Source: Bacteroidales bacterium (GTDB lineage: Bacteria; Bacteroidota; Bacteroidia; Bacteroidales; UBA932). Taken from it: DNA of 64,000 bases. A program made the translations under genes and the position numbers. Positions 43,181-59,022 of this stretch are shown here, one piece after another. Every line of letters begins with the position of its first letter. Position 1 is the stretch's first letter. The DNA is taken from the NCBI GenBank assembly GCA_017437125.1, contig JAFSBV010000025.1:88389-152388 (forward strand), given 5' to 3'. The notes under the pieces are model-generated. The model saw only the letters and a list, made by a program, of their open reading frames with translations, was not told the origin of the DNA and did not search any database.

Positions 43181-43201
43181 CAGACTTCACATGATTTGTA
43201 C

Positions 43202-43209
43202 TATCTTTG
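43202..43209 (+). promoter_or_regulatory. -7 box for the DUF1573 gene
   Basis: TATCTTTG, 27 bases before the chosen ATG (43236); lies inside the longer alternative reading frame, which supports the later start. Confidence 0.5.
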
Positions 43210-43235
43210 TCATAGGTATATATAAACGTCAGATC

Positions 43236-44333
43236 ATGATAAGGAAAACGCTTGCGGCCATAGCTGCATCATTCATATTCAGCGTATTGTCACTTTCGGC
43301 ACAGGAAAGACTGGCAAACGGTATCGAGTTCGACAGATATGTCCATAATTTCGGAGATATCCTGCTCGATAACGGTCCTGTCTCATGCACGTTCACTCTC
43401 AGCAACAAAGGAAACAAGCCGGTGGTGATATACAATGTGACGACTACATGCGGCTGCACAGACGTCGAATGGACCAGGGAGCCCATAAGAGCCGGAGGCA
43501 AGGGCGAGATCACTGTGACATATTCGAATGATGAAGGCCCATATCCTTTCGACAAGAGTCTCACCGTATATATGTCTGATGAGAAGAAACCGGTGATCCT
43601 CAAGCTCAGGGGTGTTTCAAACGAGAAGCCTCGTCCTCTGGAAGAGCTGTATCCGGTCCATTATGGTTCTCTGGGGGTGAAGGAAGATCTGATTTCATGT
43701 GGAAATCTGGAGCAAGGCGGAAGCAGGAGTGATGCCTTCATGGTGGCGAACCTGTCTTCGGCCCCGATCAACCTTACATTCAGCCAGATTTCCGAGAATC
43801 TGACACTCAGCGTTTCGCAAAATCCGATTCCGGCAAAAGGTACAGCCGAGGTAAGGTTCACTGTCAAGGCTGACCGTGATATCTGGGGCAAGCATACATA
43901 TTGGGCTGTTCCTTTGCTCAACGGTAAAAGCTACAGGAACGGTGAGGGCAGCGACAAGATAGGAGTCCGAGCATTCACAAAGGAGAACTTCAGCAATCTG
44001 ACCGACGAACAGAAACAGAAGGGCCCTATGCCTCGCTTCGAGACCAGCACATTCTCATTCGGAAATGCGAAGATCGGCACGGAGATACATGCTACATTCA
44101 AGTTCAAGAACGAGGGCAAGAGTGATTTCCTCATATACAAGGTCGATGCTGATGCCTGTTGCTATTCTCATAGCGACATCCCGGTAGCAGGGCCAGGAGA
44201 GACTGTTTCGTTCAGGGTTCATATCGACACCAAGGACATGAAGAAGGGAGAGAGCCTGACGATCATCACATTGACGACCAACTCCCCTACCCGTCCGATC
44301 ATCAATCTTTTTGTTTCGGGATATCTGGAGTAA
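43236..44333 (+). CDS. DUF1573-domain exported protein
   Basis: A 365-residue protein starting MIRKTLAAIAASFIFSVLSL, a good signal peptide (cleaved near LSAQ). An ATG 15 codons upstream overlaps the promoter box and is less likely. Two Ig-like (ASPM/SPD-2/Hydin-type) DUF1573 modules are visible: YVHNFGDILLDNGPVSCTF with TTTCGCTDVEW near the start, and STFSFGNAKIGTEIHATF with DACCYSHSD near the end. Their paired cysteines are typical. Function unknown; the family is abundant in Bacteroidota and thought to bind or scaffold in the periplasm. Confidence 0.88.
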   Translation: MIRKTLAAIAASFIFSVLSLSAQERLANGIEFDRYVHNFGDILLDNGPVSCTFTLSNKGNKPVVIYNVTTTCGCTDVEWTREPIRAGGKGEITVTYSNDEGPYPFDKSLTVYMSDEKKPVILKLRGVSNEKPRPLEELYPVHYGSLGVKEDLISCGNLEQGGSRSDAFMVANLSSAPINLTFSQISENLTLSVSQNPIPAKGTAEVRFTVKADRDIWGKHTYWAVPLLNGKSYRNGEGSDKIGVRAFTKENFSNLTDEQKQKGPMPRFETSTFSFGNAKIGTEIHATFKFKNEGKSDFLIYKVDADACCYSHSDIPVAGPGETVSFRVHIDTKDMKKGESLTIITLTTNSPTRPIINLFVSGYLE

Positions 44334-44338
44334 CAATT

Positions 44339-44394
44339 CACATACGGGCTCGGGAAACAGAAAAGAAGGAGAAATGTTTCCCTCGCCCATATGT
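44339..44394 (+). promoter_or_regulatory. Long imperfect stem-loop upstream of the metal exporter gene
   Basis: Eighteen-base arms (44339-44356 and 44377-44394) pair with three mismatches around a purine-rich 20-base loop. It lies between the DUF1573 stop and the exporter ATG. No T-run follows, so a regulatory leader is as likely as a terminator. Confidence 0.5.
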
Positions 44395-44422
44395 AAATTT
44401 ATCATGATAAAGATTTCTGACA

Positions 44423-45571
44423 ATGCATTTGTTTATTGATATATTGAGGAACAGCATTCTGATTACGGGACTTGTAGTTGTCATGATGATGATGATCGAG
44501 TCGTTGAACATCGAGTCGAAAGGATTGCTGTTCAAGGGATTGAGGCGTACGAAAGTCGGTCAGGTAGTGATAGGGGCGATGCTGGGATCAGTCCCGGGAT
44601 GCATGGGAGGTTTTGCAACTGTTTCTCTCTATACACACCGGCTTTTCAGTTTCGGAGCTCTTGTAGCCATGATGATAGCATCTTCAGGTGACGAGGCTTT
44701 CGTCATGCTCGCCATGATTCCTGATCAGGCGCTTATACTTTTTGCCGTACTCTTCATAATTGCCGTGATTGTCGGCATCGGCACGGACAGGATATATGAC
44801 AGGATTCATGAAAGGCATTGCGACAAGCATGAGCATGAAGAATGCGGAGCTGATACCGACTACCATGACGGCTATGTGGTACATGACGAGGAGCATAGCA
44901 ACGTGGCCATCTCCTCTCACAATCACAAAAGGCATTACGGATGGAAGAGGATAGTGATGTTCGTCGGCCTTGCCGTTTTCATCGCGGCACTGGCATCAGG
45001 ACAGTTGGGACATGACCATTCCGCACACGCAGAACATGCCCATCATGAGCATCATCATGCCACGATCGAGACTGAGCATGAGCACGACGGATTTCATATT
45101 GATCTGCTGAGCGAGGATTGGATGAATGTCCTGTTTGCAGGATTGAGCGTGATAGTTCTTTTCGTCCTTCTGCTTGCTTCAGACCATTTTGTGGAAGAAC
45201 ATCTCTGGAACCATATTGTGAAAAAGCATCTTCCGACAATATTCGCATGGACATTCGGTGTGCTGCTGGTTCTTGGCATTGCTCTCCAACATGTCGATAT
45301 AGACCGATGGATCAGTGATAATGTCGCACTCATGATTCTATTGGCGACATTGATAGGGATCATCCCGGAATCCGGTCCTCATCTGATTTTCGTAACCCTG
45401 TTTGCAGCCGGTGTAGTGCCGTTCCCTGTTCTCCTGGCAAGTTCGATATCTCAGGACGGTCATGCTTCGATTCCGCTTCTGGCAGAAAGCAAGAAGAGCT
45501 TCGCCTGGGCGAAGCTCATCAATTGCGTTGTTGCCATCATCGCAGGATTCGGTGCGATGATCCTTATGTAA
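44423..45571 (+). CDS. Predicted heavy-metal (manganese) exporter, His-rich (ArsP_2/10TM family)
   Basis: A 382-residue inner-membrane protein with about ten helices in two inverted halves. The first half has ESLNIESKGLLFKGL and GSVPGCMGGFATVSLYT; the second has GIIPESGPHLIFV and SSISQDGHASIPLLAESK, the conserved repeats of the putative 10TM heavy-metal exporter group often annotated as manganese transporters. Between them two loops are loaded with His, Asp and Glu (HCDKHEHEECGADTDYHD, and DHSAHAEHAHHEHHH), fit to bind metal ions. Substrate metal is inferred, not proven. It ends 8 bases from the convergent PCMD gene. Confidence 0.85.
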   Translation: MHLFIDILRNSILITGLVVVMMMMIESLNIESKGLLFKGLRRTKVGQVVIGAMLGSVPGCMGGFATVSLYTHRLFSFGALVAMMIASSGDEAFVMLAMIPDQALILFAVLFIIAVIVGIGTDRIYDRIHERHCDKHEHEECGADTDYHDGYVVHDEEHSNVAISSHNHKRHYGWKRIVMFVGLAVFIAALASGQLGHDHSAHAEHAHHEHHHATIETEHEHDGFHIDLLSEDWMNVLFAGLSVIVLFVLLLASDHFVEEHLWNHIVKKHLPTIFAWTFGVLLVLGIALQHVDIDRWISDNVALMILLATLIGIIPESGPHLIFVTLFAAGVVPFPVLLASSISQDGHASIPLLAESKKSFAWAKLINCVVAIIAGFGAMILM

Positions 45572-45579
45572 CGGGACTC

Positions 45580-47181
45580 CTATCTATAGACCAGTTCCCA
45601 CTCATCCACATGCATCACAGAGCCGACACCACCGGTGAAATAATCACCATACTGGCTTGATGATGCTACCGCCACGATATATTTAGGTTTGCGGACAGTA
45701 TCCCTGTAATCAAGGACACACTCGAACTCCACATATTTACCTTCAGTATCGACATCGGTCTCCAATCTGCCCAGAGCGATGATATGCGGATCATTATCGA
45801 AATCCACGAAAGTCTGGGAGGCAGTCATCACCCTGAACGGCTCATCCCAGTCTGCAAGCATGATCATGATCTGAGCCTTATCCATCTGTCCCATCTTGTC
45901 AGAATGTTCTCCTGACGCATTATCTATGACCTTCGGAGCGTATGAATAATATCCCTTGAGCGAGTACGGCCTTGATGTGAACGGAGTGCCCCAGTCGAGT
46001 TCTGCGCCGACTCCTCCCGAGATGGTAGCCTTCAGGAACTGTCCTGTAAAGATATTGCCGGCCGCAAACATGCCGAACACCTTCACGCTTTCAAGACGGA
46101 CAGCTGTTCCGGAAACCACGAACTTTGTTTCAGGACGGGTGGAATTGACAGCAGACATCATGTTGACTCCGGAATTGGCACATCCCCATACCTGCTCCAC
46201 TCCTTCAGGCATCGGATACCATGTATAACCGCCCGGATCTCCCTGATGCCACTCATCGAAAGACATGTTAGGAAGCTGGACAGGATTTTCCGTGACAAAC
46301 GCATATTCTTCGCTTATCTCATCGCCACATACGACTCTTGCCATATATTCCGTATCAGGTTTCAGCTGATCCACAAAAGCATGGATCTCCGTTCCCTTGA
46401 CATCCGTTGCCAGCTTGATCCATGATTCGGCACCCGTCTCCTTGTACTGTATATAAGGAGTACCGTTTCCTTTGAATACGGCATTGATATCCGCCTTGTA
46501 GCACCATGCATTTACGGATGTGATTTCCAGATTGATCAGTTTATGGACAGCAGTGAACTGCCACTCGTAATACTCCAGATCCTTATAGACCGTGAATGTC
46601 CTGGATATCACACAGTCCAGATTCATCGGAAGAATGACCTTTTCCCTTTTTTCAACCGTCTCGTTACCGACTGCAACGTAACCGAAGGTCGAATCGATCT
46701 GCGAACCCTGGGCCTCAAGCTTCATCCTTTCGAAACGGATATCGGCCAATGACTTTCCTTCCGGGAAATATGCTATTATCGTCTTCTTCTCTATATCAAA
46801 GACGGCTTCCCCTACCATTCCGTCACATACGACATATCTCTCTATAGGCTGCTCAGCCACTATAGTCCACTCATATGTCTGATCAGGATATGTCTGATAC
46901 GATATCACAAAAGGCTTGGTAAGGTCGAGGATCTCCGGCATCTCAACAGAAGGAACGGCACCTTCAGTAAATTCATAGTCCAAGACAGCCGACATGGAGA
47001 TATCAGCAGTCTCTTCAAGCACGACCTTGACTGTTCTTGAAGCTGCATCAATGGTGACAGACTTCTGTCCTTCCACTTCAAATGCAGTGATTTCAGCCAC
47101 GCTGAGCGGATATGACAAAGGATTCTCGAGGCAGGAAACTGCCATGATCATAGCAGTTATGATTATCAATGTTCTTTTCAT
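45580..47181 (-). CDS. PCMD-domain surface lipoprotein
   Basis: A 533-residue lipoprotein (lipobox VSCLENP, Cys about residue 17). N-terminal beta-rich repeats like DUF5018/Ig modules (residues 30-210) are followed by a fibronectin-III-like module (~215-295: ITSVNAWCYKADINAVF) and a C-terminal PCMD module (~305-533: FDEWHQ, VSGTAVRLESVKVFG, DWGTPFTSRPYSLKG, ending SQYGDYFTGGVGSVMHVDEW). PCMD (putative carbohydrate metabolism domain) is a jelly-roll-like module thought to meet glycans. It is the last gene of the seven-gene operon and overlaps the barrel gene by four bases. Confidence 0.85.
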   Translation of the reverse strand: MKRTLIIITAMIMAVSCLENPLSYPLSVAEITAFEVEGQKSVTIDAASRTVKVVLEETADISMSAVLDYEFTEGAVPSVEMPEILDLTKPFVISYQTYPDQTYEWTIVAEQPIERYVVCDGMVGEAVFDIEKKTIIAYFPEGKSLADIRFERMKLEAQGSQIDSTFGYVAVGNETVEKREKVILPMNLDCVISRTFTVYKDLEYYEWQFTAVHKLINLEITSVNAWCYKADINAVFKGNGTPYIQYKETGAESWIKLATDVKGTEIHAFVDQLKPDTEYMARVVCGDEISEEYAFVTENPVQLPNMSFDEWHQGDPGGYTWYPMPEGVEQVWGCANSGVNMMSAVNSTRPETKFVVSGTAVRLESVKVFGMFAAGNIFTGQFLKATISGGVGAELDWGTPFTSRPYSLKGYYSYAPKVIDNASGEHSDKMGQMDKAQIMIMLADWDEPFRVMTASQTFVDFDNDPHIIALGRLETDVDTEGKYVEFECVLDYRDTVRKPKYIVAVASSSQYGDYFTGGVGSVMHVDEWELVYR

Positions 47182-47993
47182 TTCCTGTCACCTCCATTCT
47201 TTTTTGAAACAGCAGGAAGATAGAACGAAAGTCCCAGGTTTATCGACAAAGGATTTATTCTGAAATTCGCTCCGCTCTGCTGCATGACACTGACGTCAAC
47301 CTTGTTGGTTTCCTGTCTGATATACTGGTAACTCAAGCCTAAGATTCCCACTGCTACTTCAACGCAGACCTCATTCGTAGCAAAGACACAAAGTCCCGGG
47401 ACTACATTGAGAGCGGCTCCATATATATCCTGGAACGTACCCTGATTACGGCCGTTCACAACCTGATATGATACAGACTGCCCGATATCGCAACCAAGAC
47501 GCAATTCTCCGAACATGGCGATCCTGCGACTGTTGGCTATAGGCATATAGTACCTGGCCGTGACAGCACCCGTATAAGAATTCTTCAGAAAATGGAAATC
47601 ATTCAGGTCAAATGAAGCCAGATCACCTAAAGAGAGACCAAGAGTGTTAAGTCCCAGTTCTGTCCTGTCATAATCAAATCTGGCACCGATGGAAAGATTG
47701 TCTTTGATGAAATATGAGAACGATGGTGCCACGCCATATGTCTGCAAGCTTCCCTTTACCCCCGAAAGGAGAGAGAACAAGGCCGAATATCCGGCATCAT
47801 CAGCTCCGTTGCCGAGATCATATGTCTTATATGAAAACGACAGTCCTCCTCCCATATATCCCTTAGGGATGAAAACGGAGTTCATCTTGCCTACACCGCG
47901 GTCAAAGGGAGCAGCCTCTTCCTCGGAAGAAGAGGCTGACACCATAGGTGCGATGATGATAATGCACAGAAAAGTCAATAATAACTTCTTCAT
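47178..47993 (-). CDS. Outer-membrane beta-barrel protein of the PCMD operon
   Basis: A 271-residue protein with a signal peptide (ending VSASS, residue ~21) and regular amphipathic strands (YMGGGLSFSYKTYDLG, SIGARFDYDRTELGL, GAVTARYYMPI, RRIAMFGELRLGCDIG, LSINLGLSFYLP). It lacks the terminal Phe of a standard barrel because a short charged tail (KKNGGDRK) follows. It overlaps both neighbours (1 and 4 bases), so it is part of the operon, perhaps as the outer-membrane platform for the lipoproteins. No named family can be given. Confidence 0.75.
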   Translation of the reverse strand: MKKLLLTFLCIIIIAPMVSASSSEEEAAPFDRGVGKMNSVFIPKGYMGGGLSFSYKTYDLGNGADDAGYSALFSLLSGVKGSLQTYGVAPSFSYFIKDNLSIGARFDYDRTELGLNTLGLSLGDLASFDLNDFHFLKNSYTGAVTARYYMPIANSRRIAMFGELRLGCDIGQSVSYQVVNGRNQGTFQDIYGAALNVVPGLCVFATNEVCVEVAVGILGLSYQYIRQETNKVDVSVMQQSGANFRINPLSINLGLSFYLPAVSKKNGGDRK

Positions 47994-50251
47994 TATCTTA
48001 TGTTTTTCATTACTGCTTCAAATTCCGCTGGCGTAAGTTCTGCCGGATCATAGATCAGTTCAAGCTCATCAAGATACATGGTACTTCCAAGACCACCGGT
48101 GAAGTAGTCACCATAACGGCTGGCTGCTCCTGCTATCACAATGTAAGAAGGCTCTTCGAGACTTCTGTACTCGAGAGGAATCGTAAAGCGGATATAACCG
48201 TTTTGATTACCAAGATTGTCAGTAGTGTTGTCCTGTGAGATGAATCCTCCGTAAGCGATGATATCAGGATTGTTCTCCGATGTATCCACAAAGCGGTTGT
48301 CACCGGTACTGATCTCGAAAGGCTTGCTCCAGTTGGTAAGGAATATCTGTATCTGACAGAAGTCTGTCTGGCCATTGAGATATGAGTAGTTCGATGACGT
48401 CCTGTTGATGGCAACCGGCTCATATCTGTACCATCCACGAAGAGCCAGAGGACGTGAATTGAACGGAATACCCCAGTCAAGCTTAGCTCCGACAGGACTC
48501 AAAGTAGCAGCGCCGAAATCTCCGGTATAGATGTTTCCGGCTGCGAAATTACTGAGAAGCTCGCCTGACTCCATTCTGGCTGCCTTTCCGCTTATGACAA
48601 TCGTCTCTTCAGGGGTCGTCGGCACAAGGCTCTGTCCGAGGATATCTGCGGTTCCCTCGTTGGCAGAGTCCCAGACAAGATGATTGTTATAGTCATCTGT
48701 CGCATACCATGCCTTTCCGACCTTTACCCAGTCATCAAAGCTGAGGTTATAAACTGTCTCTTCTGTTGGATATGTGCTGAATGCTATCTCGGTAGCAGTC
48801 TTGCCGTCTGCCTTATCCTTTGCAGAAGTAGCGCGGAACACATAATCAGCTCCCGGTTCGAGATTGTTCAGACATGCGCTGTAAGTAAGGCTCTCGAGGT
48901 CTATGTCCATCAACGAAGGATCCATCTCGGTCCACTCTGAATCAGAAACCTTTCTGTACTCGAATGAAAGTCCTTCCGGTGCAGACTTCGAGAAGAATCG
49001 TCCGGAGAGTGTAGCGAAGCCGGACCAAGGCATCACTGAAACAGTCTCAGCAACAATATCGGAAACAATTGAAAAAGCAAAATCACATCTTGCATATCTC
49101 TCATATGTATCGATTACCGTCAAAGACATGAGATAAGGCTTGTTGTCAGGCGAAATGGAAAGACGGCTTACAAAGTCGGTAATGTCAATGGTAGCAGTTA
49201 GATCACCTTCAGACACAGACGAAGCTGTGATTCCTATATCTTCCATGATCTGAAGCTCCTCATCGCTGATATTAACAAAGTCGGTCAGCTGAGGGAGTCC
49301 TTCTGCAAGAAGATACTCATCCAGATGAGAAATGACAAGACTCTTTATTCCTCTACCGGCAGTAAAGGTAAAGGACTTGAGGATGTCGTTTCCAAGAGGA
49401 TAAATGATTCCTTCCTCATCCGGATTGAATTCCGGATTAGTGCTGTATGAAGGCATTATCGTCTTGTCAAAATTGAGATTGATCTTATGTTCGTAAGATT
49501 CCTTGAATTCTCCGTCAAGAAGAATGTTCAGAACCATTGCACCATCGATCTCCTCCCTCTCTCCAAGAGTGAACTCAAAATGATAGTGCTCGGCCATCTC
49601 AACCTGTGCAAGCTCTGCAGTGGTCGAATACATGGCACCGTCTGCATTGCGAAGCTTGAGCGTATATGTCAGGATCCTGTTTTCAGGAACCTCAAAATAA
49701 GCGGTATCTGTAAATGAGCCGAAACTTGGATCATCAGGCATATCGTATGATGCAAAAGTCAGGGTCTCACCGTTTGAAACGGCAAGTTCGTAAGATGGGA
49801 ATTTCGATGAGAAGTCATCGTCTTCAGGGAACTTCACACTGAACTTGATCTTGCCAAGTTTACAGTTTATGTCCACATTTGAATGAGTCTCGGCCAATAC
49901 CCTGACTGTATTTTCACCGAAATACTTAGGGCTGTTGAATGCAGTACCGTCTTCACCGGAAGTGGCGGTGACACGATACTTGTCCATCAGGAGTTCAATA
50001 GGTTCCTCTTCCGTTACTGTCCTGTGATCCTCTATGGTCTTGGCCAGGACATCATCTGAATAATAAAGGTCAAGTCTGTAAACGATATCCTCCTCTTCCT
50101 CGCTCTTGAGATGCACGAGATCATCAAGTTCATCAGAGACACCGACAGTAAGATAACCGTACCTCCGGTCTCCGCTGACTCTCGAATCCGTACAGGACAG
50201 AGCAGAAAGAGCAAGAATCATCAGACCTGCAAATCTTATGGTCTTCTTCAT
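47993..50251 (-). CDS. DUF4493 + PCMD surface lipoprotein
   Basis: A 752-residue lipoprotein (LSALSCTDS, Cys about residue 20). Residues ~30-260 fit a DUF4493/Mfa2-like module (YGYLTVGVSDELDDLV, then YRVTATSGEDG); residues ~265-420 are a DUF4493-associated beta region; ~425-500 a fibronectin-III-like part; ~505-735 a PCMD module (FDDWVKVGKAWY, VISGKAARMESGELLSNF, DWGIPFNSRPLALRG, SRYGDYFTGGLGSTMYLDE). The PCMD part is clearly related to that of the 45.6-47.2 kb gene. It shares one base with the barrel gene downstream and is 11 bases after the DUF4493 gene. Confidence 0.87.
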   Translation of the reverse strand: MKKTIRFAGLMILALSALSCTDSRVSGDRRYGYLTVGVSDELDDLVHLKSEEEEDIVYRLDLYYSDDVLAKTIEDHRTVTEEEPIELLMDKYRVTATSGEDGTAFNSPKYFGENTVRVLAETHSNVDINCKLGKIKFSVKFPEDDDFSSKFPSYELAVSNGETLTFASYDMPDDPSFGSFTDTAYFEVPENRILTYTLKLRNADGAMYSTTAELAQVEMAEHYHFEFTLGEREEIDGAMVLNILLDGEFKESYEHKINLNFDKTIMPSYSTNPEFNPDEEGIIYPLGNDILKSFTFTAGRGIKSLVISHLDEYLLAEGLPQLTDFVNISDEELQIMEDIGITASSVSEGDLTATIDITDFVSRLSISPDNKPYLMSLTVIDTYERYARCDFAFSIVSDIVAETVSVMPWSGFATLSGRFFSKSAPEGLSFEYRKVSDSEWTEMDPSLMDIDLESLTYSACLNNLEPGADYVFRATSAKDKADGKTATEIAFSTYPTEETVYNLSFDDWVKVGKAWYATDDYNNHLVWDSANEGTADILGQSLVPTTPEETIVISGKAARMESGELLSNFAAGNIYTGDFGAATLSPVGAKLDWGIPFNSRPLALRGWYRYEPVAINRTSSNYSYLNGQTDFCQIQIFLTNWSKPFEISTGDNRFVDTSENNPDIIAYGGFISQDNTTDNLGNQNGYIRFTIPLEYRSLEEPSYIVIAGAASRYGDYFTGGLGSTMYLDELELIYDPAELTPAEFEAVMKNIR

Positions 50252-50262
50252 GACAAGTCAGT

Positions 50263-51495
50263 TTAATTAGCCGGAACAACAATCGTTACTACCGGATATT
50301 CACCGTCGATCAGGATCTCCTCTTCATTGCTGTCGCTGGCCTTGAGAGTGAACTCTACAGTCTGACCGCCCGCAACACCGCATAATGTATCGATGAACGG
50401 AGTGAGTTCGAACACGATTTCCGTAGCTCCGAGAACCTCATCACCCACAGGAAGACCGAACGGCTTCCATGTATCCGCATCATTGATAAGGTCAATATAG
50501 TCTTTTCCTCCGATCATTGAAACAGCCGACTTGAAGTTCTGGCTGACCTCAACCACAAAGGTCTGGATTCCAGCCGGAGCCTTGATGGTCATGCTGATTT
50601 CGTCACCTTTCTTGATGCTAACCGGATCAAAGAACGGATTGGCCTCCCATACGATGGATGGCTTGGTCTGTTCTTCCTCACTGCCGGAATCATCTCCATC
50701 ACCGAAATCAGGTCTGTCAACATATGGTTCGTCAAGGCCGTCAATGAATATGTCATCACTGATCTCATTGAAGTCCGTGACTACATCGATTGTCACACCT
50801 CCGATCGTACCTGTCACCTTTGCATCAATGGTAACGATATGATGCTCGGCTGGCTGAGGATTCTTCACATAATATACAGCTGTAGCTTCAGTATTGTCAA
50901 TGCTTCTGTATCCCTTCACCTTGACTTCGAGACCTCTCGGAAGGAAATAACCGGCCTTTCCGGTTCCGAAATCATCTACTGACTCATTCTTGGTCCATAC
51001 AAGTTCACCAAGTCCGTTGCCGACTACAACTTCGTAAGTAGCAAGCTCCTTCTTGAAATTCTCGGTAAGCTCGATGGTCACCTTGCAGTTATATGGCACG
51101 CACTTCAGCTGAAGGTCGGTCACCTCACCTGCCTTGATCACGAAAGTGTCATCCGCCCTGTAGATCGGCTGTTCGAAAGCAGCCGGCTCAGTATCCGGAG
51201 ATGTTACAGATATCGTATATGTACCTGAGCTGAGTTCAATGATCGTACCTATGAATTCACTGTATTTACCCTTGTAAGTGGTAGGGCCGATTATCTCGAC
51301 GTCGTAATTCGACACATCAGTGTAGTCGATTATCCCGTCATCAGCCTTTGTGTTGACTGTTATGTAGTCAGCGAGCTCGACAATGTTCAATGACAGGCTT
51401 CCCGTCTCTACCGGATCTTCCACCACCGTATTGGCAGGTTTGCAAGAGACCAGACATATGATTACCGCCAATGCCTGGAAAAACATCTTTTTCAT
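50263..51495 (-). CDS. DUF4493-domain lipoprotein
   Basis: A 410-residue lipoprotein from ATG 51493-51495 (MKKMFFQALAVIICLVSCKP, Cys about 18); an ATG further upstream would place a non-signal lead before the signal peptide and overlap the previous gene. The N-terminal half (~20-230) is a DUF4493 module (GSLSLNIVELADYITVNTKA, YDVEIIGPTTYKGKYSEF, CKVTIELTENFKKEL), the second half a DUF4493-associated domain (VWEANPFFDPVSIKKG, TFVVEVSQNFKSAV), but no PCMD follows. It may be a shorter stem or anchor subunit of the same assembly. Confidence 0.83.
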   Translation of the reverse strand: MKKMFFQALAVIICLVSCKPANTVVEDPVETGSLSLNIVELADYITVNTKADDGIIDYTDVSNYDVEIIGPTTYKGKYSEFIGTIIELSSGTYTISVTSPDTEPAAFEQPIYRADDTFVIKAGEVTDLQLKCVPYNCKVTIELTENFKKELATYEVVVGNGLGELVWTKNESVDDFGTGKAGYFLPRGLEVKVKGYRSIDNTEATAVYYVKNPQPAEHHIVTIDAKVTGTIGGVTIDVVTDFNEISDDIFIDGLDEPYVDRPDFGDGDDSGSEEEQTKPSIVWEANPFFDPVSIKKGDEISMTIKAPAGIQTFVVEVSQNFKSAVSMIGGKDYIDLINDADTWKPFGLPVGDEVLGATEIVFELTPFIDTLCGVAGGQTVEFTLKASDSNEEEILIDGEYPVVTIVVPAN

Positions 51496-51523
51496 ATCGT
51501 TATATTTTATCATTATCTTGTTG

Positions 51524-53803
51524 TTAGTAAGTAAGTTCGACATTGTCAATCCTCAATACGGAACCGATGTGGGCAGTCTGCTGCTTGCCCGCGATCTCCA
51601 TGCTGACAGCTGTATTGACTGATCCGCTTGTGGTTGATCTGAATGAAATGTATATGCTTGCAGCCTTAGCCTTCGTATTGGAATAGAGTACAGGTATCTC
51701 ACACTGTGCCCACTCCGAGCTTGCCGCACCATCAAGTTTTTCAGATCTTGCGATCTCGTTGCCGTCCTTGTCCTTCATGGATATAGTGACGGCAAATGTC
51801 TCATTGTTTATCGGGGCATATTTATACCAGAACTTCACAGAAGTCGGGCGGCTGGCAAAGGCACGTCCGTCAGCTGAATGATTTCCGTCATTATCTGCCT
51901 TTCCTATCCAGATTTCTCCAGGAACACTGGTTCCTACCGCCGTACCGTCAGTATTGCCGCTGCCCACGTTTACAGTATATACCATTGCAGAACGGTCACC
52001 TTCATACCTGTCTGTCGAATAGGCGGTGCATGGGAAGTTCTTGCAGAAATTCGATGTCCATGCAGTATGGCCGTCCGGCATGGTCTTCTTGCTGTTCACT
52101 GCCCACCACGGATCCGTATCACCCTCATTATAAGGTAGATACCACTCGCGGTCATAATCATATAGCCATCCTAACGGAGACACATGCATCACGGTAGTAT
52201 GATACTCTTCAAATCCCGGATTGCCTATCTGAAGTTCCTCTTCCGTAGTGACGGCCACAAGATTGGAAACAAGATTAGGATTTCCGTTATATATGGTCCT
52301 GAAATAGTACAGGGTATTTGGTCTTACCTCCAGAGTACCGAAGTCCAGGACTCCGTTATCGGCCGACTTATAGCTCACCCAGTCATTCCACGAATATCCG
52401 TTCTCACTGACCTGAAGAGTGAAGAGGCTGCTTACACCGGCACTTACCTGCAGCTTTGGAGAAACGATCCTGTTCGCCCAGACATCGCCTTCATCAAGCA
52501 GAAGGGTCTGATAGATTGCATAAGCCGTAGCCGTAAGATCCAAGGTTGTCTCATGATCCACATCATCGACAACCCTGATAGAGAATGAAGCGACGTTTTC
52601 ATCTCTGGTGAGAGAAGCGATATTGTCATTCACCATAGTAAAGAAGTCAGTCATCGTGAGATATGTCAGTCTTCTCGAACCCTTCATATTGTCCTGCCAT
52701 TCGAATCCTGCGTCAGCAAGAGCTTCCTTGACAGAAGCGTCAAGGGAAGGATCTGCAAGGTCGATTTCCTGGCCTAACGGTACTCCCGGCAACAAGGATT
52801 TGTAATCGGAATCTATCCTGAAGAAGAAGTTCTTCAGACCGGCTCTTGCCACAGCCGATATCGTTGCTCCGTTTCCGTTTTCATCACCCTCGATTATGGC
52901 GTGATCCCCTTCGACGAATCCAGCAGCGACGATCTGTGGAGGATCCTGAGGAGCCCAAGCCTCCTGAATCACCGCATCAATATTCTTCTCGATGATATTG
53001 TCATCTGTAGTAATGTTCACCTTAAGAGTACCATATCTCGGTTCTGCAGAAATCGCAAGCGTGAGATGGTCATTCGGCTTAGTCGCGATCGTGTCGAGCA
53101 CAACGAATTTCCAAGAAGATTCATCATTGAGTTCAGTCTGACCCATGAACTCGATCTGCACGCTGTCCGACGCCATCATATATGCATCCTTCTCCTGATC
53201 CTTCTTATAACGGAGAATCTGCTTCTTCTTCACCTGATCCAGATTTGTGAAACGCACAAAGAAGTCATAGAACGATCCTGGAACCGTTCTGTCGTAATCC
53301 ACTGTGATCCTGACATTCGAGACCTTCGCCACAGCAGACACCATATTCCTCACAGGGTTGCCTGATTCATCGAGACCTCCGTCAACCGTGAACTCTTCCT
53401 CTGCAAGAAAATACGGCTTGTCAAATCCGCAGGCGGTAGAGTCACCATGGAAGGCAAGAAGCTTCCAATCTCCGGCCACGACCTTGAATACGGAATCCTT
53501 AGCCTCATCATATCTGCCGAAATAGATTCGGTTCCAGGTTTCCTTCTTTGAATCCGCTTTCCTTTTCGAATACCTGTACAGTTCAACATACAGGCTGTCT
53601 GCCGGAGGTACAAGAGATTCGTCCATTCCGAGAGATCCGTCATCTCCCTTGACAGGAACGATCTGCACCTTGTCATCGACATCCACTGCGACCTGAAGCA
53701 GTCCGATCTCATCCGCGCCGTCTCGGAAGTCATCGAACTGGTTCTTCATGCACGAGGTCATGACGATTGCCAGCAGAACCGGTAAGAATCTTAATTTTTT
53801 CAT
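51524..53803 (-). CDS. DUF4493 + PCMD surface lipoprotein
   Basis: A 759-residue lipoprotein from MKKLRFLPVLLAIVMTSCMK (ATG 53801-53803; another ATG lies three codons upstream). Order of modules: DUF4493 (~25-260: IGLLQVAVDVDDKVQIV, WNRIYFGRYDEAKDSVFKV), DUF4493-associated (~265-440: FVEGDHAIIEGDENGNG, GLKNFFFRIDSDYKSLL), fibronectin-like (~445-530), and PCMD (~535-759: NPGFEEYHTTVMHVS, SVKFWYKYAP, ending HIGSVLRIDNVELTY). It shows the same build as the 48-50 kb gene, so the operon grew by duplication. Confidence 0.87.
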   Translation of the reverse strand: MKKLRFLPVLLAIVMTSCMKNQFDDFRDGADEIGLLQVAVDVDDKVQIVPVKGDDGSLGMDESLVPPADSLYVELYRYSKRKADSKKETWNRIYFGRYDEAKDSVFKVVAGDWKLLAFHGDSTACGFDKPYFLAEEEFTVDGGLDESGNPVRNMVSAVAKVSNVRITVDYDRTVPGSFYDFFVRFTNLDQVKKKQILRYKKDQEKDAYMMASDSVQIEFMGQTELNDESSWKFVVLDTIATKPNDHLTLAISAEPRYGTLKVNITTDDNIIEKNIDAVIQEAWAPQDPPQIVAAGFVEGDHAIIEGDENGNGATISAVARAGLKNFFFRIDSDYKSLLPGVPLGQEIDLADPSLDASVKEALADAGFEWQDNMKGSRRLTYLTMTDFFTMVNDNIASLTRDENVASFSIRVVDDVDHETTLDLTATAYAIYQTLLLDEGDVWANRIVSPKLQVSAGVSSLFTLQVSENGYSWNDWVSYKSADNGVLDFGTLEVRPNTLYYFRTIYNGNPNLVSNLVAVTTEEELQIGNPGFEEYHTTVMHVSPLGWLYDYDREWYLPYNEGDTDPWWAVNSKKTMPDGHTAWTSNFCKNFPCTAYSTDRYEGDRSAMVYTVNVGSGNTDGTAVGTSVPGEIWIGKADNDGNHSADGRAFASRPTSVKFWYKYAPINNETFAVTISMKDKDGNEIARSEKLDGAASSEWAQCEIPVLYSNTKAKAASIYISFRSTTSGSVNTAVSMEIAGKQQTAHIGSVLRIDNVELTY

Positions 53804-53820
53804 TATAAACATATTAACTG

Positions 53821-55800
53821 TTATTTCGAATATTCTATCTTATGTCCGAAAGACACCATGGTATTACTTCCTAAAATCGAGCGTCCTAATGACACGCTGT
53901 ATATCAATGAAGGATTTGACGTTGTAAGAGTCAGACTCTGCCCGCACACCAGATATCCTATATTATCAAAGCTTCCTACATCTCCGAAAGCTCCTGCACC
54001 TTGATAATAATCTTTACCTATTACAAGAGTAACACCTGTACCGCTACTTGTCGCATTTGAAGTACAAGCTGCGATATTCATGTTCATAGTTGAAGAATTA
54101 GATGTGACATTGTGCCTGCAAGCACATGCCGTGATGACCTTGATACCCTCGGATCCAGGTATATGGAAGCCAGGACTTCTTATGGCATCCGTTGTCTGGA
54201 AAACCACTCTGTTATCACTGTATGATGTACCTATCATACCCCATGACGGGCTCATGTCCGACGGATTTGCTGTAGTGAAGTCAGCTGTAAGCGGAAGTCC
54301 GGTAATATGGAAGTCTCTTGATGCGCTTATCGTCATCTTGCCGGCTGTTGCTGATGCTGTCATAGAATACTTACGCCAGGTGCTTCTTGTAAGATTACCG
54401 AAATCGAGTATATTGCTGCCATCAGCACTCTTTTCATCTGCAGTTGAAATTCCCTCGACAGATGCGGTAAAGCTGTCCAGAATATCAGGATGGACATTGA
54501 TTTCTGCCTTTACTCCTGCAATCAAGGTATTGGTATGGGAATTGGCACCGTCAACATCACCGCTCTCATACTTGTCATACGAAGTCTCGCCGTCAAGAAC
54601 AAGTCTTACACCCGGATCAGGAATAGTAACACTGACTGATCCAAGTGATGCATTATTGCCATATATCTTATAATAAGGAGCGAATGTATATGTACCACCA
54701 GGGAGAAGATACCACTCATCCAGAACATCCATGCTTATAGTACCTCCTGTTATCGGAGTCTCATTGTCAAACACCTTGGAACGCACGATATTTCCCTGAG
54801 CATCAATGAGTTTTGCGCCCCACTCCTCTATCAGTTTATCAGAAGAGCCGGACTTGCTCATGATAAAGGACACCTGAGTTCCGGAAAGAAGTCCGTTGAC
54901 AGTGGAATGCTCGACCGATGGCGCAGAACAAGAGACATTGAAGCTTTCAAATTCGCCATCGATCGTTATCGGAATGATATAGCCGGCCTTGTCAGAAAAA
55001 TCGAATCCTCCTGAAAGAGAACCGTCCGAACTGTATGACTTGACCATATATGTTCCGTCATCCTTGGAAAGAACCAGCGAAAAGCCTTTTTCAAGATTAA
55101 CAGGAGGGACAGAAATATAAGTGTATCCTTCCGTCTGGACAGGAACAGTTATCTGAAGTCCCAACTCTGTAGAAACCTCTATGACTTCCGTATCAAGATC
55201 CAATGTCACAGGAGAAAGGTGTTCAAGCTCGTTTCCCACAAAAGAGATCTGTGACAGACCATCCATTTCCACCGTAAGTTCAAGCACTGCACCTACATGA
55301 TGCATCTCCGCATATATCCCGTCCGGATCATAAGCAGCTGATGCATAAAGGAATGGCTCATGTCTTCCGCTCTGGTTGGCATAATAGAAGACCACCTTTC
55401 CTTCCTGCAGATCCGTCGTAACGACAGATTCCTTTGAAGGATAAGTGAATATGCATTCCTGAGGTTCGGAATTCATTGAAACGAAACCGGTAAACGATGC
55501 GCTTCCAGGATCATCAGCATCAACAGAATATAAAGTCAGCTCGGCCGCACCGATACTTCCGTCTGAAGCTCCGGCAGTGATCCTGACCATATCATCATCA
55601 TCCCAAGAAAGAGCCGTTCCTTCGACAGTCATTCTGGTATCAGGATAGAATGATGCCGACAAGGAAACCGGATAATCATTGGTATGCGTACTCTCGGGCA
55701 CGTCAGGGCCGGTTACCGAACAAGCGGTAATCAGCGACGCGATTCCGAGATACAGCAATCCAGCCAGTCTCCTTATTCCGATAACCTTTCCCCTCATCAT
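53821..55800 (-). CDS. Fimbrillin-like (Mfa1/FimA family) lipoprotein
   Basis: A 659-residue lipoprotein (SLITACSVTG, Cys about residue 27). Residues ~40-290 have the fimbrillin-like pattern of Bacteroidota type V pili and related adhesins: SASFYPDTRMTVEGTALSWDD, then FTYPSKESVV, the repeated use of GYIIPITIDG and a beta-sandwich build. The second part (~290-659) is a further beta-rich region of unknown family (SFNVSCSAPSVEHSTVNG, PGGTYTFAPYYKIYG). It overlaps the upstream gene by four bases (ATGA) and is 17 bases from the next. It could be the shaft or a cap of a pilus-like structure. Confidence 0.75.
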   Translation of the reverse strand: MMRGKVIGIRRLAGLLYLGIASLITACSVTGPDVPESTHTNDYPVSLSASFYPDTRMTVEGTALSWDDDDMVRITAGASDGSIGAAELTLYSVDADDPGSASFTGFVSMNSEPQECIFTYPSKESVVTTDLQEGKVVFYYANQSGRHEPFLYASAAYDPDGIYAEMHHVGAVLELTVEMDGLSQISFVGNELEHLSPVTLDLDTEVIEVSTELGLQITVPVQTEGYTYISVPPVNLEKGFSLVLSKDDGTYMVKSYSSDGSLSGGFDFSDKAGYIIPITIDGEFESFNVSCSAPSVEHSTVNGLLSGTQVSFIMSKSGSSDKLIEEWGAKLIDAQGNIVRSKVFDNETPITGGTISMDVLDEWYLLPGGTYTFAPYYKIYGNNASLGSVSVTIPDPGVRLVLDGETSYDKYESGDVDGANSHTNTLIAGVKAEINVHPDILDSFTASVEGISTADEKSADGSNILDFGNLTRSTWRKYSMTASATAGKMTISASRDFHITGLPLTADFTTANPSDMSPSWGMIGTSYSDNRVVFQTTDAIRSPGFHIPGSEGIKVITACACRHNVTSNSSTMNMNIAACTSNATSSGTGVTLVIGKDYYQGAGAFGDVGSFDNIGYLVCGQSLTLTTSNPSLIYSVSLGRSILGSNTMVSFGHKIEYSK

Positions 55801-56684
55801 TCATCCTCCATTACTGAACCGGAAACATAGTCCTGTACCTTCAAGCCGTTTTCTACAGAAACCCTCTGCCCGGAAATTATGAACTTTATGTTCGGACTGA
55901 TCACAGGATCACCCGTATATCGTACATTGAACGTCACGTCATCACCTGCATTCAGAACCACTGGCTCACCGGTCTGCTCATCATCAAGGAATCCGGTCTT
56001 CACAGGAACATATTCCTCCGCACCGTCAACACGGATGAAAAGCGTATATCGGAGATACACCGGGGTTTCATACATATTGTAATATCCGGATTTATCAACA
56101 GAATCGAAAGAGAGACTGCGGAGAAGGATCTCCTCAGATGAGGCCTGAGAGCTTTCTTCTTCAGATTCTTCCTCTTCAGGATATGTAACCTCATCGACAT
56201 CCAGTCTGAATGCATCGAATGATTCGAACATTGAATTGTCGAAATAGACCGACACCTTGGCATTCGCCACCTGGCAGAGAACCCAGACAGAAGCCGTCTG
56301 GCCGTTAACAACGGAAAAGACCTCGCTGACACCTGCATACCTTAAGCATCCGTATCCGGCTTCCGCCACTTCCTCGGAGCAACTCTCGGCTTCCATCCTG
56401 AATATTCCGTAATACCAATCCATAGGCCACGAGACATCACCATACCTGAATTTCTCAGATGTGGCATAGCCGTCCAGACCGGCAAAACGGAAATAGTAAT
56501 CGTCAACTTCCGACTGGCTCTGAAGGGATTTTATCTCGATATCCGGTGCGAGTGAAAGAGTCACTTTGCCTTTGCCTGAAACCGGCTCTTCAAGCCTTTC
56601 TTTCAAGCTGTCGCAAGACGACAGTAAAACAATCGCCAACGCCGATATGATCAGCGTAACCGGACGCACTGCGTGCAGGAACAT
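55797..56684 (-). CDS. DUF4493-like lipoprotein, first gene of the operon
   Basis: A 295-residue lipoprotein (VLLSSCDSLK, Cys about residue 24). The body is one DUF4493-like module: GKGKVTLSLAPDIEIKSLQS, YYFRFAGLDGYATSEKFRYG, WYYGIFRMEAESCSEE, VFSVVNGQTASVWVLCQVA with NAKVSVYFDNSMFESFDAF; this last motif recurs in the other DUF4493 proteins of the operon. An acidic Glu/Ser-rich loop (PEEEESEEESSQASSEE) stands near residue 180. As the leading, shortest protein it may be an anchor or regulator of the assembly, as Mfa2/FimB is in type V pili; that is inferred. Confidence 0.8.
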   Translation of the reverse strand: MFLHAVRPVTLIISALAIVLLSSCDSLKERLEEPVSGKGKVTLSLAPDIEIKSLQSQSEVDDYYFRFAGLDGYATSEKFRYGDVSWPMDWYYGIFRMEAESCSEEVAEAGYGCLRYAGVSEVFSVVNGQTASVWVLCQVANAKVSVYFDNSMFESFDAFRLDVDEVTYPEEEESEEESSQASSEEILLRSLSFDSVDKSGYYNMYETPVYLRYTLFIRVDGAEEYVPVKTGFLDDEQTGEPVVLNAGDDVTFNVRYTGDPVISPNIKFIISGQRVSVENGLKVQDYVSGSVMEDE

Positions 56685-56819: not shown

Positions 56820-58193
56820 ATGAAAAAACGCTCCTACTTCCTGCATTGTATCATATTTCTGATTCTATCGGTCATAACGACCGGTTGCGAGATACTGCAC
56901 CCTCAGGAGCCTATAAGTATCAATCCTGCCGGAATTGTCTGCAGCCATGAAGGAGGAGAATTCGTTATAGATGTAAAAGCTGATAAGGGATGGAGTGCCA
57001 GCGGAATGCCGGACTGGGTGAAAGTGAGAAGCGGAAGCGATCTGGCAGTCATCGACATAGAATCTAACGAAGGCTTCGAAAGAAACTGCACTCTGACCTT
57101 CGCTGACGCTCATTCATCTGCCACATTGGAAATATCCCAGGAAAGCAGCAATATGCTGGCTGTAAGCACTGACACGATAACTGCAGACTACAGGGAAGGG
57201 ACTTTCAGCATTGATGTGGAATGCTACAGGAGCTGGAACATGGAATGCAGCCATGACTGGATGACGGCAGATGCATATTCAGGCGAAGGCCCTGCCACAA
57301 TCACCATAAGCATATCTGAAAACAGCGGCACAGAGGACAGAAACGGCTTCATATCATTTACATCCGGCGGTCTGTCATCGGAAATCAGCGTCACCCAGCT
57401 GAAAGGGCCTGTCCTTGGAGTGGAGAAAGACATGATCGAGATTGACGGAGACGGCGGTGTCGTACAGGTTCTGTACATGAGCGATCATGATGTGGAGATC
57501 ACTTCGGAATGCGACTGGATACGCCTCATCAGCAAGGGTTCAAACATCAAGATGATCGCTTTCGAAGTACTGAAGAACAGCGCAGGCCCGCGTGAAGGAA
57601 GGGTAAAGGTAAGCCTGATTGAATATCCTGAAATCTTCCGCGAAATCACCGTGTCTCAAGGAGAAAGGATCAGCCATCCATCCCTGAGCATCGAGGAGGG
57701 AACATATATGGAAATATCCTCAAAGGGGACGATCCGGCTTCATCCGATATTCGAAGATATGACTGACACCAGCCTGAGATGGAGCTCTGATTCACCGGAA
57801 ACGGCATCTGTTGACGACGATGGCATCATATATATATACAGGAGCGGCAGATGTGTCATCACGGCAAGCAACGCATATCACGGGGTGAAAGCTTCAATCG
57901 AGCTGAACATCAGGCTGAAGGCATCATCCATGAAGGTATTTCTCAACGATCAGGACATGAGCATAAATCCTGTAGCCGTGAGATATCCCGGAGAATCCTT
58001 GAAGGCAAGCATAGTCATGGATCCGCCAGAGGCATACTCGGATGACATCATCCTGTATGCCGACGACACTGAATCCATTGAAATCGAGGGAAGAACCATC
58101 AGATGTCTGAAGCCGGGAAAGAGCACGATACACGCGGAATCCGTATATCAGAAGCTTCAGACACAGTTCACAATCATCGTATTGGAGCCGTAG
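56820..58193 (+). CDS. BACON/Big_2-domain surface lipoprotein
   Basis: A 457-residue lipoprotein (SVITTGCEIL, Cys about residue 23). Three BACON-type Ig modules are seen: residues ~35-105 (GGEFVIDVKADKGWSASG, PDWVKVRSGS, SNEGFERNCTLTFAD), ~110-195 (GTFSIDVECYRSWNMECSHD) and ~200-285 (GGVVQVLYMSDHDVEIT). A bacterial Ig-like (Big_2) module follows (~295-370: MEISSKGTIRLHPIFEDM, TASVDDDGIIYIYRSGRC) and a second less clear one to the end. BACON modules of this family bind mucin-type glycans or hold other modules. It is divergent from the PCMD operon and its 3' end overlaps the DUF3575 gene by 20 bases. Confidence 0.88.
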   Translation: MKKRSYFLHCIIFLILSVITTGCEILHPQEPISINPAGIVCSHEGGEFVIDVKADKGWSASGMPDWVKVRSGSDLAVIDIESNEGFERNCTLTFADAHSSATLEISQESSNMLAVSTDTITADYREGTFSIDVECYRSWNMECSHDWMTADAYSGEGPATITISISENSGTEDRNGFISFTSGGLSSEISVTQLKGPVLGVEKDMIEIDGDGGVVQVLYMSDHDVEITSECDWIRLISKGSNIKMIAFEVLKNSAGPREGRVKVSLIEYPEIFREITVSQGERISHPSLSIEEGTYMEISSKGTIRLHPIFEDMTDTSLRWSSDSPETASVDDDGIIYIYRSGRCVITASNAYHGVKASIELNIRLKASSMKVFLNDQDMSINPVAVRYPGESLKASIVMDPPEAYSDDIILYADDTESIEIEGRTIRCLKPGKSTIHAESVYQKLQTQFTIIVLEP

Positions 58194-59022
58194 TCCTGTA
58201 TCTTCTCAACGAGAATCTGTAAGACAGGTTGATTCCGACCTTTGTGATACCGATGTCGGTATTGACCTCATGCTTGAAGTAGGTCTTGCCGTCTTCTGCC
58301 GGATAAATGCGTTTCTGCTGATATGAAGAATATCCCAGGCCTACATAATACTCCAGATTCCAGTGACCCTTTCTGTCCAGAGGATGCGAATATCCGTAAG
58401 TAAGACCAAAGCTCAATGCCGGATACTTCGTACCGGAATCATAGCGGTCATCTATACCGTTCTGATAAATGATCGTTGCTCCGTCCTTGTCGCGCCACTC
58501 AAGGGTGTACCAGGCTGCATTGGCATGGAGACCGACAAAATATCCTTTCGTCATAGCCCGGCCGCCGAACCACCAACGAAGCTCCGGAGCAAATCCATAT
58601 ATATTGGTCTGCTTGTTAGGATAGAAGATGTTCCATCTGCTGTACCATCCGTTCAGGTCAAGTGAGAGATTCCTTGCAAGCTGGATTTCCAGTCCTCCAT
58701 ACGGAATCACTATGGCGTCTGAAAGAAGATTGGTCTTGAATCCCAGCATCCAAGGAGTAGCATAATATGGCTTTGAGCTGTACTCACCTGACTTCCTCAT
58801 CGCTTTATACTCGCGGCGACTGAGGATGACAGTGTCACGTATATAAGCATTCTCCGGTACCGTTATCGTAACCAGAAGGCTGTCCGGAGCCTTGATAGAG
58901 ATATCATCAAGCTTGAGATATCCAGAATATGTCTGGGCTGAAGCCGTACGACAAACAGCCACGAACATCACTACAAACAGTATTGACAAACGTCTTGAGA
59001 TGTTTCCTTTCATTACTTTCAT
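58174..59022 (-). CDS. DUF3575-domain outer-membrane protein
   Basis: A 282-residue exported protein (signal peptide to about residue 29, RTASAQ). A short N-terminal part is followed from ~residue 90 by a beta-barrel region typical of DUF3575: WMLGFKTNLLSDAIVIPYGG, then LSLDLNGWYSRWNIFYPN, APELRWWFGGRAMTKGYFVG, GLGYSSYQQKRIYP, TKVGINLSYRF. DUF3575 proteins often stand in fimbrillin/minor-pilin loci of Bacteroidota, which strengthens the pilus-like reading of this region. The minus-strand box TATTTTTG (59037-59044) may be its promoter; the divergent parE promoter lies just beyond. Confidence 0.87.
   Translation of the reverse strand: MKVMKGNISRRLSILFVVMFVAVCRTASAQTYSGYLKLDDISIKAPDSLLVTITVPENAYIRDTVILSRREYKAMRKSGEYSSKPYYATPWMLGFKTNLLSDAIVIPYGGLEIQLARNLSLDLNGWYSRWNIFYPNKQTNIYGFAPELRWWFGGRAMTKGYFVGLHANAAWYTLEWRDKDGATIIYQNGIDDRYDSGTKYPALSFGLTYGYSHPLDRKGHWNLEYYVGLGYSSYQQKRIYPAEDGKTYFKHEVNTDIGITKVGINLSYRFSLRRYRTTAPIR

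Follow-up and report, generated by a model that had tools for sequence, protein, structure and literature searches.

A conserved five-gene operon of Bacteroidales that may encode a surface attachment structure related to type V pili

Introduction

How gut Bacteroidales hold on to mucus, to fibre and to each other is poorly known. A stretch of 64,000 nucleotides from a Bacteroidales bacterium (GenBank assembly GCA_017437125.1, 99 contigs; contig JAFSBV010000025.1, positions 88,389 to 152,388 of the forward strand), called the window below, holds an operon of seven consecutive minus-strand open reading frames (ORFs) at window positions 45580-56684. Read 5' to 3' along their own strand they are g1, g2, g3, g4, g5, g6 and g7, and they raise the question of what a set of DUF4493 and PCMD lipoproteins with one barrel protein builds at the cell surface. 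The original prediction saw in them a surface assembly with ties to type V pili, grown by tandem duplication of a glycan-facing subunit. Here we report that g3 to g7, named A to E, form a core whose linkage and order are conserved across families of Bacteroidales. We propose, with a probability of roughly one half, that this core may encode a surface attachment structure related to and distinct from type V pili, matured by a protease and presenting PCMD heads. Such a surface unit of five genes, for which both a cleavage site and a binding head can be predicted, would bring named proteins and exact residues to the question of attachment, and DUF4493 and PCMD, Pfam families without tested function, would gain a working hypothesis. 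No mention of DUF4493, of "PCMD domain" and its long name, of PF14900 or of PF13201 was found in the PMC papers searched, which does not prove their absence from print.

Results and Discussion

A five-gene core with conserved order

The linkage described in the original prediction agrees with the ORF coordinates: neighbouring genes overlap by 4, 1 and 4 bases or are separated by gaps of 8, 28 and 11 bases, the longest gap being 28 bases. The claim of six lipoprotein signals and one barrel also held up. A lipobox cysteine was seen by eye in g1 to g5 and g7, which are predicted lipoproteins, and g6 has a signal peptide without lipobox and looks like a barrel. The domains of each protein are given in Table 1. 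Compared among A, B and C, the DUF4493 domains match with a profile probability of 100 and the middle domains with 98 to 99. The two N-terminal immunoglobulin-like (Ig-like) domains of E are related to each other at 98% by profile comparison.

To describe the operon in other genomes, we took the best 80 of at least 425 matches to the gene C profile in a scan of named genome records. Because these loci were fetched by likeness to gene C, the set is biased towards complete operons. By profile, the order A-B-C-D(-D2)-E is kept in 41 of the 80 loci, and many of the remaining loci are truncated where a contig ends or score below the limit used. Fifty-five A-type genes were called in the 80 loci, most of them at the head of the core. 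Loci with a complete core include those of Bacteroides propionicigenes (L100), Parabacteroides chinchillae (L066), P. massiliensis (L106), Barnesiella sp. An55 (L097) and Candidatus Cryptobacteroides avicola (L057). We also examined 148 Bacteroidales genomes, sampled evenly over the order. DUF4493 was present in 16 of the 148 and PCMD in 70, and C, D and E stand together in 9 of the 16 DUF4493 genomes (the window's, G008, G119, G018, G083, G098, G102, G114 and G127). In the stretches taken, G131 has A-B-C with no D and E beside them, and G007, G039, G087, G111, G123 and G145 have DUF4493 genes and no C-D-E. When 394 genomes from across the phylum were searched and up to three candidates were scored in each, a full-length match to E was found only in the window's genome, G098 and G497, all of the same order.

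The five core genes are linked, and their order is kept across Bacteroidales families beyond chance. Loss of linkage in related genomes would have spoken against the original prediction, and the linkage survived this check. Its seven-gene order was retained in part: g3 to g7 are conserved as a core, but g1 and g2 lie outside it. PCMD, found in 70 genomes versus 16 for DUF4493, also occurs in other contexts, a finding that the prediction had named as one that would count against it.

Alignments were built from the called genes, each with the window's gene added (65 of 65 for C, 65 of 67 for D, 27 of 75 for E, 23 of 58 for B and 22 of 55 for A); C-type genes shorter than 561 amino acids (aa) were left out. 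All 24 aligned B proteins match DUF4493. The lipobox pattern, a prediction, is present in 48 of 55 A, 56 of 58 B, 57 of 65 C and 58 of 75 E proteins and in 39 of 42 short additional DUF4493 proteins, as compared to 6 of 67 D proteins.

Some loci depart from this order. The barrel pair D1-D2 of L117 and L128 lies upstream of A and not between C and E; barrels can therefore move as a pair. Eleven loci look rearranged (L085, L089, L099, L100, L105, L110, L116, L122, L127, L129 and L200), with an A-like gene of about 550-770 aa and a short DUF4493 gene after E; several of them belong to Bacteroides, Phocaeicola and Parabacteroides.

DUF4493 and the Mfa2/FimB family

Profile comparison indicates a distant relationship between DUF4493 and Mfa2/FimB, a family of type V pilus proteins. 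The type V profiles contained 10 Mfa2, 13 Mfa_like_1 and 2 FimA rows. The DUF4493 domain of C matched the Mfa2 alignment with a probability of 89-90 (E about 2e-6) over 111-113 columns, and with a probability of 88 when signal peptides were removed. The combined 204 DUF4493 rows matched Mfa2 with probabilities of 54 and 66. As controls, 15 column-shuffled Mfa2 alignments gave at most 0.1, and two reversed alignments gave 0.1. A solved-structure search with the B profile returned no convincing match for DUF4493.

A predicted maturation site after the first strand

As excerpted from PMC5789003, Rgp cuts the shaft and tip precursors after an Arg past the first strand, and the anchor Mfa2, without such a site, is left uncut; an excerpt of a review (PMC7616799) has FimA assembling by protease-mediated strand exchange. 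A comparable site can be predicted in DUF4493. The first strand is alternating hydrophobic, with two columns that are 99% hydrophobic flanking one at 21%. After this strand, one column holds Lys or Arg in 176 of 196 occupied rows, at a median distance of 31 residues (range 1-77) from the lipid cysteine. The next residue is Ala or Ser in 164 of the 176; Thr or Ser before together with Ala or Ser after is found in 125, and the complete T-[KR]-A in 84.

Near the N-terminus, T[KR][AGS] occurs in 25 of 55 A, 38 of 58 B, 34 of 65 C and 26 of 42 short proteins, as compared to 3.1 to 5.2 in the shuffles of each family. E has it in 1 of 75 proteins (shuffles 5.1) and Mfa2 in 1 of 10. For these counts, reading began at residue 21 in proteins in which no lipobox was found. 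The type V control rows kept were from 10 of 18 Mfa2, 21 of 30 Mfa_like_1 and 13 of 14 FimA loci, fragments, repeats and off-type rows having been dropped by eye. With each family taken separately, the top column has Lys or Arg in 42 of 48 proteins for A, 54 of 56 for B and 33 of 39 for the short ones; the controls gave 18 of 20 and 10 of 12 for pilin-type proteins and 5 of 10 for Mfa2.

Several short DUF4493 proteins (for example L100_10, L105_8, L110_3 and L113_4) have a similar tail of alternating hydrophobic residues, of the VD-S/T ... VDVEV-P type. This tail is a candidate donor strand.

DUF3575 genes at the head of a few operons

Five of the seven loci around Mfa2 hits (L194-L199 and L202) open with a pair of genes, one for a short DUF3575 protein and the next for its longer partner; L197 and L202 are the two without this pair at the start. 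Two such pairs were scanned. Both short proteins are DUF3575; one partner matches DUF3868 with a weak OmpA match, and the other matches TPR only. In Bacteroides thetaiotaomicron, the DUF3868 and DUF3575 genes (BT4233-36) are near the Mfa1-type BT4227 by locus number, as given in an excerpt of PMC10434189.

A single fused protein is encoded immediately upstream of A in four loci of our set (L054, L055, L065 and L068). Its OmpA-side half matches the long type V protein with a probability of 99.3, and its DUF3575 half matches the short one with 99.5. L074 has only a 145 aa DUF3575 stretch at that position. Within the 80 loci DUF3575 is matched five times, each time immediately upstream of A; a sixth match is the window's. 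In 47 loci, gene A is present with more than 1.5 kb before it. The window DUF3575 protein aligns with the C-terminal half of the operon-type fusion with an hhalign probability of 100 (E 5.9e-59, 216 columns), and its gene stands alone, beyond the operon. The tie to type V pili is firmer than it was in the original prediction, its basis being the homology of DUF4493 with Mfa2, the Lys/Arg site and the operons headed by DUF3575.

The same three features also speak for a plain type V pilus operon with genes too diverged for Pfam to recognise, and in L076 a Mfa_like_1 gene lies upstream in the same run (E 1.7e-06). We consider this explanation very improbable. The window genome has a separate, recognisable type V locus on contig C99, with Mfa2 and FimA-type genes, which argues against plain type V membership of the operon. 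None of the seven window genes matches Mfa2, P_gingi_FimA or Mfa_like_1 in Pfam at E≤1; a shaft gene of the FimA, Mfa1 or Mfa_like type and a Mfa2/FimB anchor gene are both missing from the seven by this measure. No type V counterpart was found for barrel D or for the anchor-like E. We propose that the operon is related to a type V pilus and would work in a similar way, but, because no gene is a recognised shaft or anchor, we did not file it as one.

Another fimbrial-type operon of the window genome, on contig C63 (L201), is headed by a DUF3575 gene. This gene is followed by one other gene and then by five that match the Mfa_like_1 profile; further on is a lipoprotein of 1090 aa with T-K-A.

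PCMD heads and the sugar-uptake context

C and E have the FN3-PCMD part in common. The motif YGDYFTGG named in the original prediction is common to g5 and g7 but absent from g3. In the C and E profiles, the PCMD portion matches four solved structures (4jrl, 4het, 3hbz and 3s30), which are named only as putative or hypothetical glycoside hydrolases. The N-terminus of the E profile matches entries 8aa2_T and 8a9y_T, each a "DUF4960 domain-containing protein" (3.1e-09); we take 8aa2_T to be the surface binding protein of a levan-uptake complex. A glycan-facing subunit, as originally proposed, is plausible from the four PCMD matches, but unproven.

These matches can also be read in favour of separate lipid-anchored glycan-binding lipoproteins, with PCMD carried on Ig and FN3 spacers and D acting as a porin, which are neither cut nor polymerised. 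Besides the resemblance of PCMD to the four structures and of the E N-terminal Ig domain to the DUF4960 protein, two loci have relevant neighbours. In L070 (Parabacteroides), a beta-galactosidase-type family 2 glycoside hydrolase gene (GH2) with a laminin-G-like insert, at 1311-5111, is directly upstream of A on the same strand. In L116, a TonB-dependent receptor gene lies a few genes from the core on the opposite strand. There may be a tie to glycan use in single loci. Eighty-one flanking proteins of at most 900 aa were scanned, taken from 117 listed in loci up to L096 and below SusC size, and no SusD or glycoside hydrolase family was matched by two or more of them. The families matched at least twice were housekeeping and regulator types, DUF3575, OmpA and BACON. 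Nine of 21 larger flanking ORFs were also scanned and gave the two cases of L070 and L116. No linked set of SusC/SusD and carbohydrate enzymes appeared in the flanks scanned. Separate lipoproteins would moreover leave the Lys/Arg column of DUF4493 and the type V DUF3575 gene unexplained, and we consider this explanation unlikely, though it deserves serious attention.

Origin of the paralogous genes and their heads

The original prediction held that the operon grew by tandem duplication. We rejected a recent origin of this kind and favour old paralogues that exchange modules by conversion in a few loci: the positions of A, B, C and E are fixed across families, so the duplications look old. The recent event, in a few loci, is homogenisation of PCMD between C and E. 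In a tree of 56 C-terminal ends from 27 loci and the window, C and E do not form two clean clades, and at least 8 changes are forced by well-supported branches. The clearest case is L127 (Phocaeicola barnesiae), in which a stretch of 827 bases, confined to the C-terminal end, shows 90% DNA identity between C and E, and the remainder is about 14 to 37% identical (40-column blocks of the protein alignment). The corresponding DNA identities are 85% over 720 bases in L095, 81% over 676 bases in L053 and 68% over 666 bases in L055. The sharp borders of near-identical PCMD in L127, L095 and L053 look like module-wise gene conversion.

Over the last 240 residues, C and E of one locus are at least 70% identical in 4 of 62 loci, and comparisons across loci average about 36 to 49%. 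The own pair is above all 12 random others in 13 of the 62. In the window the C/E pair is 46% identical and no conversion is seen. These data suggest that one head is copied onto the other now and then, in a few loci, and such copying may therefore reflect selection for matching heads.

An extra FN3-PCMD gene lies off the operon on contig C74 of the window genome (L193, 9073-9951). It has a TGA inside the profile match and adjoins a gene weakly like Mfa_like_1, and is possibly a stray, decaying copy.

Barrel D

D looks like an outer-membrane barrel. Of the 66 aligned D proteins, 15 show a weak match to OMP_b-brl (E≤0.1; the best is 7.3e-05), and 40 of 67 D proteins have an aromatic-hydrophobic C-terminal ending, which is usual for outer-membrane barrels. 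The D profile has no solved relative at E≤5. D was also considered as a relative of DUF3575 and rejected, the profile probability being below 1.

Most complete loci encode several lipoprotein paralogues along with a barrel. This arrangement would also suit a non-fibrous coat or vesicle-associated layer in which the DUF4493 proteins are packed laterally around D. Nothing specific speaks in favour of such a layer and there is no S-layer family among the Pfam matches of the window genes. We regard it as even less probable than a diverged type V pilus.

Proposed assembly and comparison with known systems

We favour a protease-matured attachment structure. The DUF4493 subunits A, B and C, with the short extra proteins, would arrive at the cell surface as lipoproteins. 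A protease specific for Arg or Lys would then cut after the Lys/Arg and free the first strand, and the open groove would accept the strand of a neighbouring subunit. The product would be a short mixed fibre and not a long shaft of one subunit. E would remain as the lipid-anchored base, and D, with or without DUF3575, might help to hold or export the structure. The PCMD ends of A, C and E would be the binding heads, with carbohydrate as the probable ligand. More tentatively, and with well under even odds, the operon may represent a second class of protease-matured, strand-exchange fibres of Bacteroidales, built from several DUF4493 subunits on an E-D base and with PCMD heads shared between subunits by module-wise gene conversion, so that the whole fibre would bind one ligand and could switch it as a set.

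The operon resembles the type V pili (Fim and Mfa1 of Porphyromonas, Fim of Bacteroides) in having lipoprotein precursors, by lipobox prediction, with a hydrophobic first strand followed by Lys or Arg, in the remote homology of DUF4493 with Mfa2/FimB, and in the DUF3575 gene that heads some operons. Like their subunits, those encoded here are predicted lipoproteins, and a site after the first strand can be read from their sequences; E would take the part of the anchor. Unlike type V pili, the operon has no recognisable shaft or Mfa2 gene, it has PCMD heads and barrel D, its anchor candidate E has neither DUF4493 nor the site, and it encodes several DUF4493 subunits instead of one repeated pilin. 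The surface glycan-binding lipoproteins of polysaccharide utilization loci (surface glycan-binding proteins, SusE/SusF) likewise have a lipid anchor, Ig or FN3 spacers and a beta-rich binding end, and the N-terminus of E resembles a DUF4960 protein. In contrast to those loci, SusC, SusD and enzyme genes are not regular in the scanned flanks, the five-gene order is fixed, and three of the five core proteins have the Lys/Arg site. The stand-alone PCMD proteins (3hbz, 4jrl, 4het and 3s30) have the PCMD module in common with the operon, but they are single PDB chains of 342-360 residues and match only the FN3/PCMD part of C and E.

Several observations weigh against the structure we favour. Donor strand, cleavage and fibre are predictions from sequence. 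The match with Mfa2 covers mainly the N-terminal half; A alone reached a probability of 43 (reverse 8) and B alone 18 (reverse 15). Against the Mfa_like_1 and FimA sets DUF4493 reached only about 3; Mfa2 itself matches these two sets only at 22 and 11, so the profile method is blunt here. To these we add the missing Pfam matches of the window genes to type V families. The complete fused DUF3575 gene is present in only 4 of the 80 loci. In C the top Lys/Arg column is less regular (37 of 57). E, the supposed uncut anchor, has a Lys/Arg column at a similar distance in 34 of 58 proteins, which, as read from the consensus, looks like an R-T-V setting within the Ig-like domain. The looser pattern [TSA][KR][AGSTV] is present in 25 of 75 E proteins, equal to the shuffles (25.2). 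The C and E proteins end at PCMD with no tail beyond it. Finally, C11 proteases were rejected as the specific partner; all 10 of the 10 genomes searched have them, but so do 4 of 14 controls, and they give no specific support.

Accessory genes and flanks

The features of the operon and its neighbours are listed in Table 1. The listed ORF of g4 begins at a TTG at 51549, and the likely start is the ATG at 51495, from which the residues of B are numbered.

Table 1. Genes and predicted maturation sites of the window operon, with two neighbouring genes
Feature	Window position	Strand	Length (aa)	Assignment	Pfam match (E value)	Lys site
g1	55797-56684	-	295	Accessory short DUF4493 lipoprotein	DUF4493 (2.3e-13)	I-K-S
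g2	53821-55800	-	659	Accessory lipoprotein, possibly fimbrillin-like (weak)		
g3 (core A)	51524-53812	-	762	Lipoprotein: DUF4493 / Ig-like middle / FN3-like / divergent PCMD-like end	DUF4493 (2.1e-18); PCMD (weak, 7.2e-08)	V-K-G
g4 (core B)	50263-51495	-		Lipoprotein: DUF4493 / Ig-like middle	DUF4493 (7.4e-34)	T-K-A
g5 (core C)	47993-50251	-	752	Lipoprotein: DUF4493 / middle domain / FN3-like / PCMD	DUF4493 (5.2e-30); PCMD (6.8e-41)	L-K-S
g6 (core D)	47178-47993	-	271	Predicted outer-membrane barrel		
g7 (core E)	45580-47181	-	533	Lipoprotein: two related N-terminal Ig-like domains / FN3-like / PCMD; without DUF4493; candidate membrane anchor	PCMD (1.2e-39)	
g1 Lys52 codon	56529-56531	-		Predicted maturation site; same Lys/Arg column; hand-counted		
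g3 Lys55 codon	53648-53650	-		Predicted maturation site; same Lys/Arg column; hand-counted		
g4 Lys50 codon (from ATG 51495)	51346-51348	-		Predicted maturation site; same Lys/Arg column; hand-counted		
g5 Lys49 codon	50105-50107	-		Predicted maturation site, loop after first strand; hand-counted from translation		
BACON-repeat lipoprotein gene	56820-58193	+		Divergent from g1; neighbour, doubtful member	BACON (3.8e-23)	
DUF3575 barrel gene	58174-59022	-		Possible accessory; separated from operon by BACON gene	DUF3575 (1.6e-28)	

The genes g1 and g2 are lineage-specific additions to the old five-gene core, because they are absent from G008, a genome of the same genus, and present in the two closest loci, L051 and L052, which have short DUF4493 genes at the place of g1. 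In G008 the core lies between the gyrase-B-type and the ArsP_2/DUF1573 flanks.

The original prediction took g2 for a fimbrillin-like protein, which can be kept only as a weak suggestion. In hhalign, g2 resembles Mfa_like_1 at 95% with a four-member profile and 83% with a three-member profile, signal peptides included, but the match fell to 11.6% once the signal peptides were cut off (10 shuffles gave at most 0.1), and Pfam returned nothing for g2 with the threshold as loose as E≤5. A firm assignment as fimbrillin was therefore rejected. Close homologues of g2 occupy the equivalent place in L051 and L052, and a remote one, which itself carries DUF4493, lies after E in L129 (4.5e-18).

Upstream of the operon are the opposite-strand BACON gene, the DUF3575 gene and a gyrase-B-type gene. 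Both neighbours named in the original prediction are present, but DUF3575 is outside the operon, with the BACON gene between. BACON genes of 452 aa occupy the equivalent place in L051 and L052. On the downstream side, a DUF1573 gene and an exporter gene of the ArsP_2 type (window 43191-45571) face the operon, and both types are also found downstream in related loci, each in 8 of the 81 flanking proteins.

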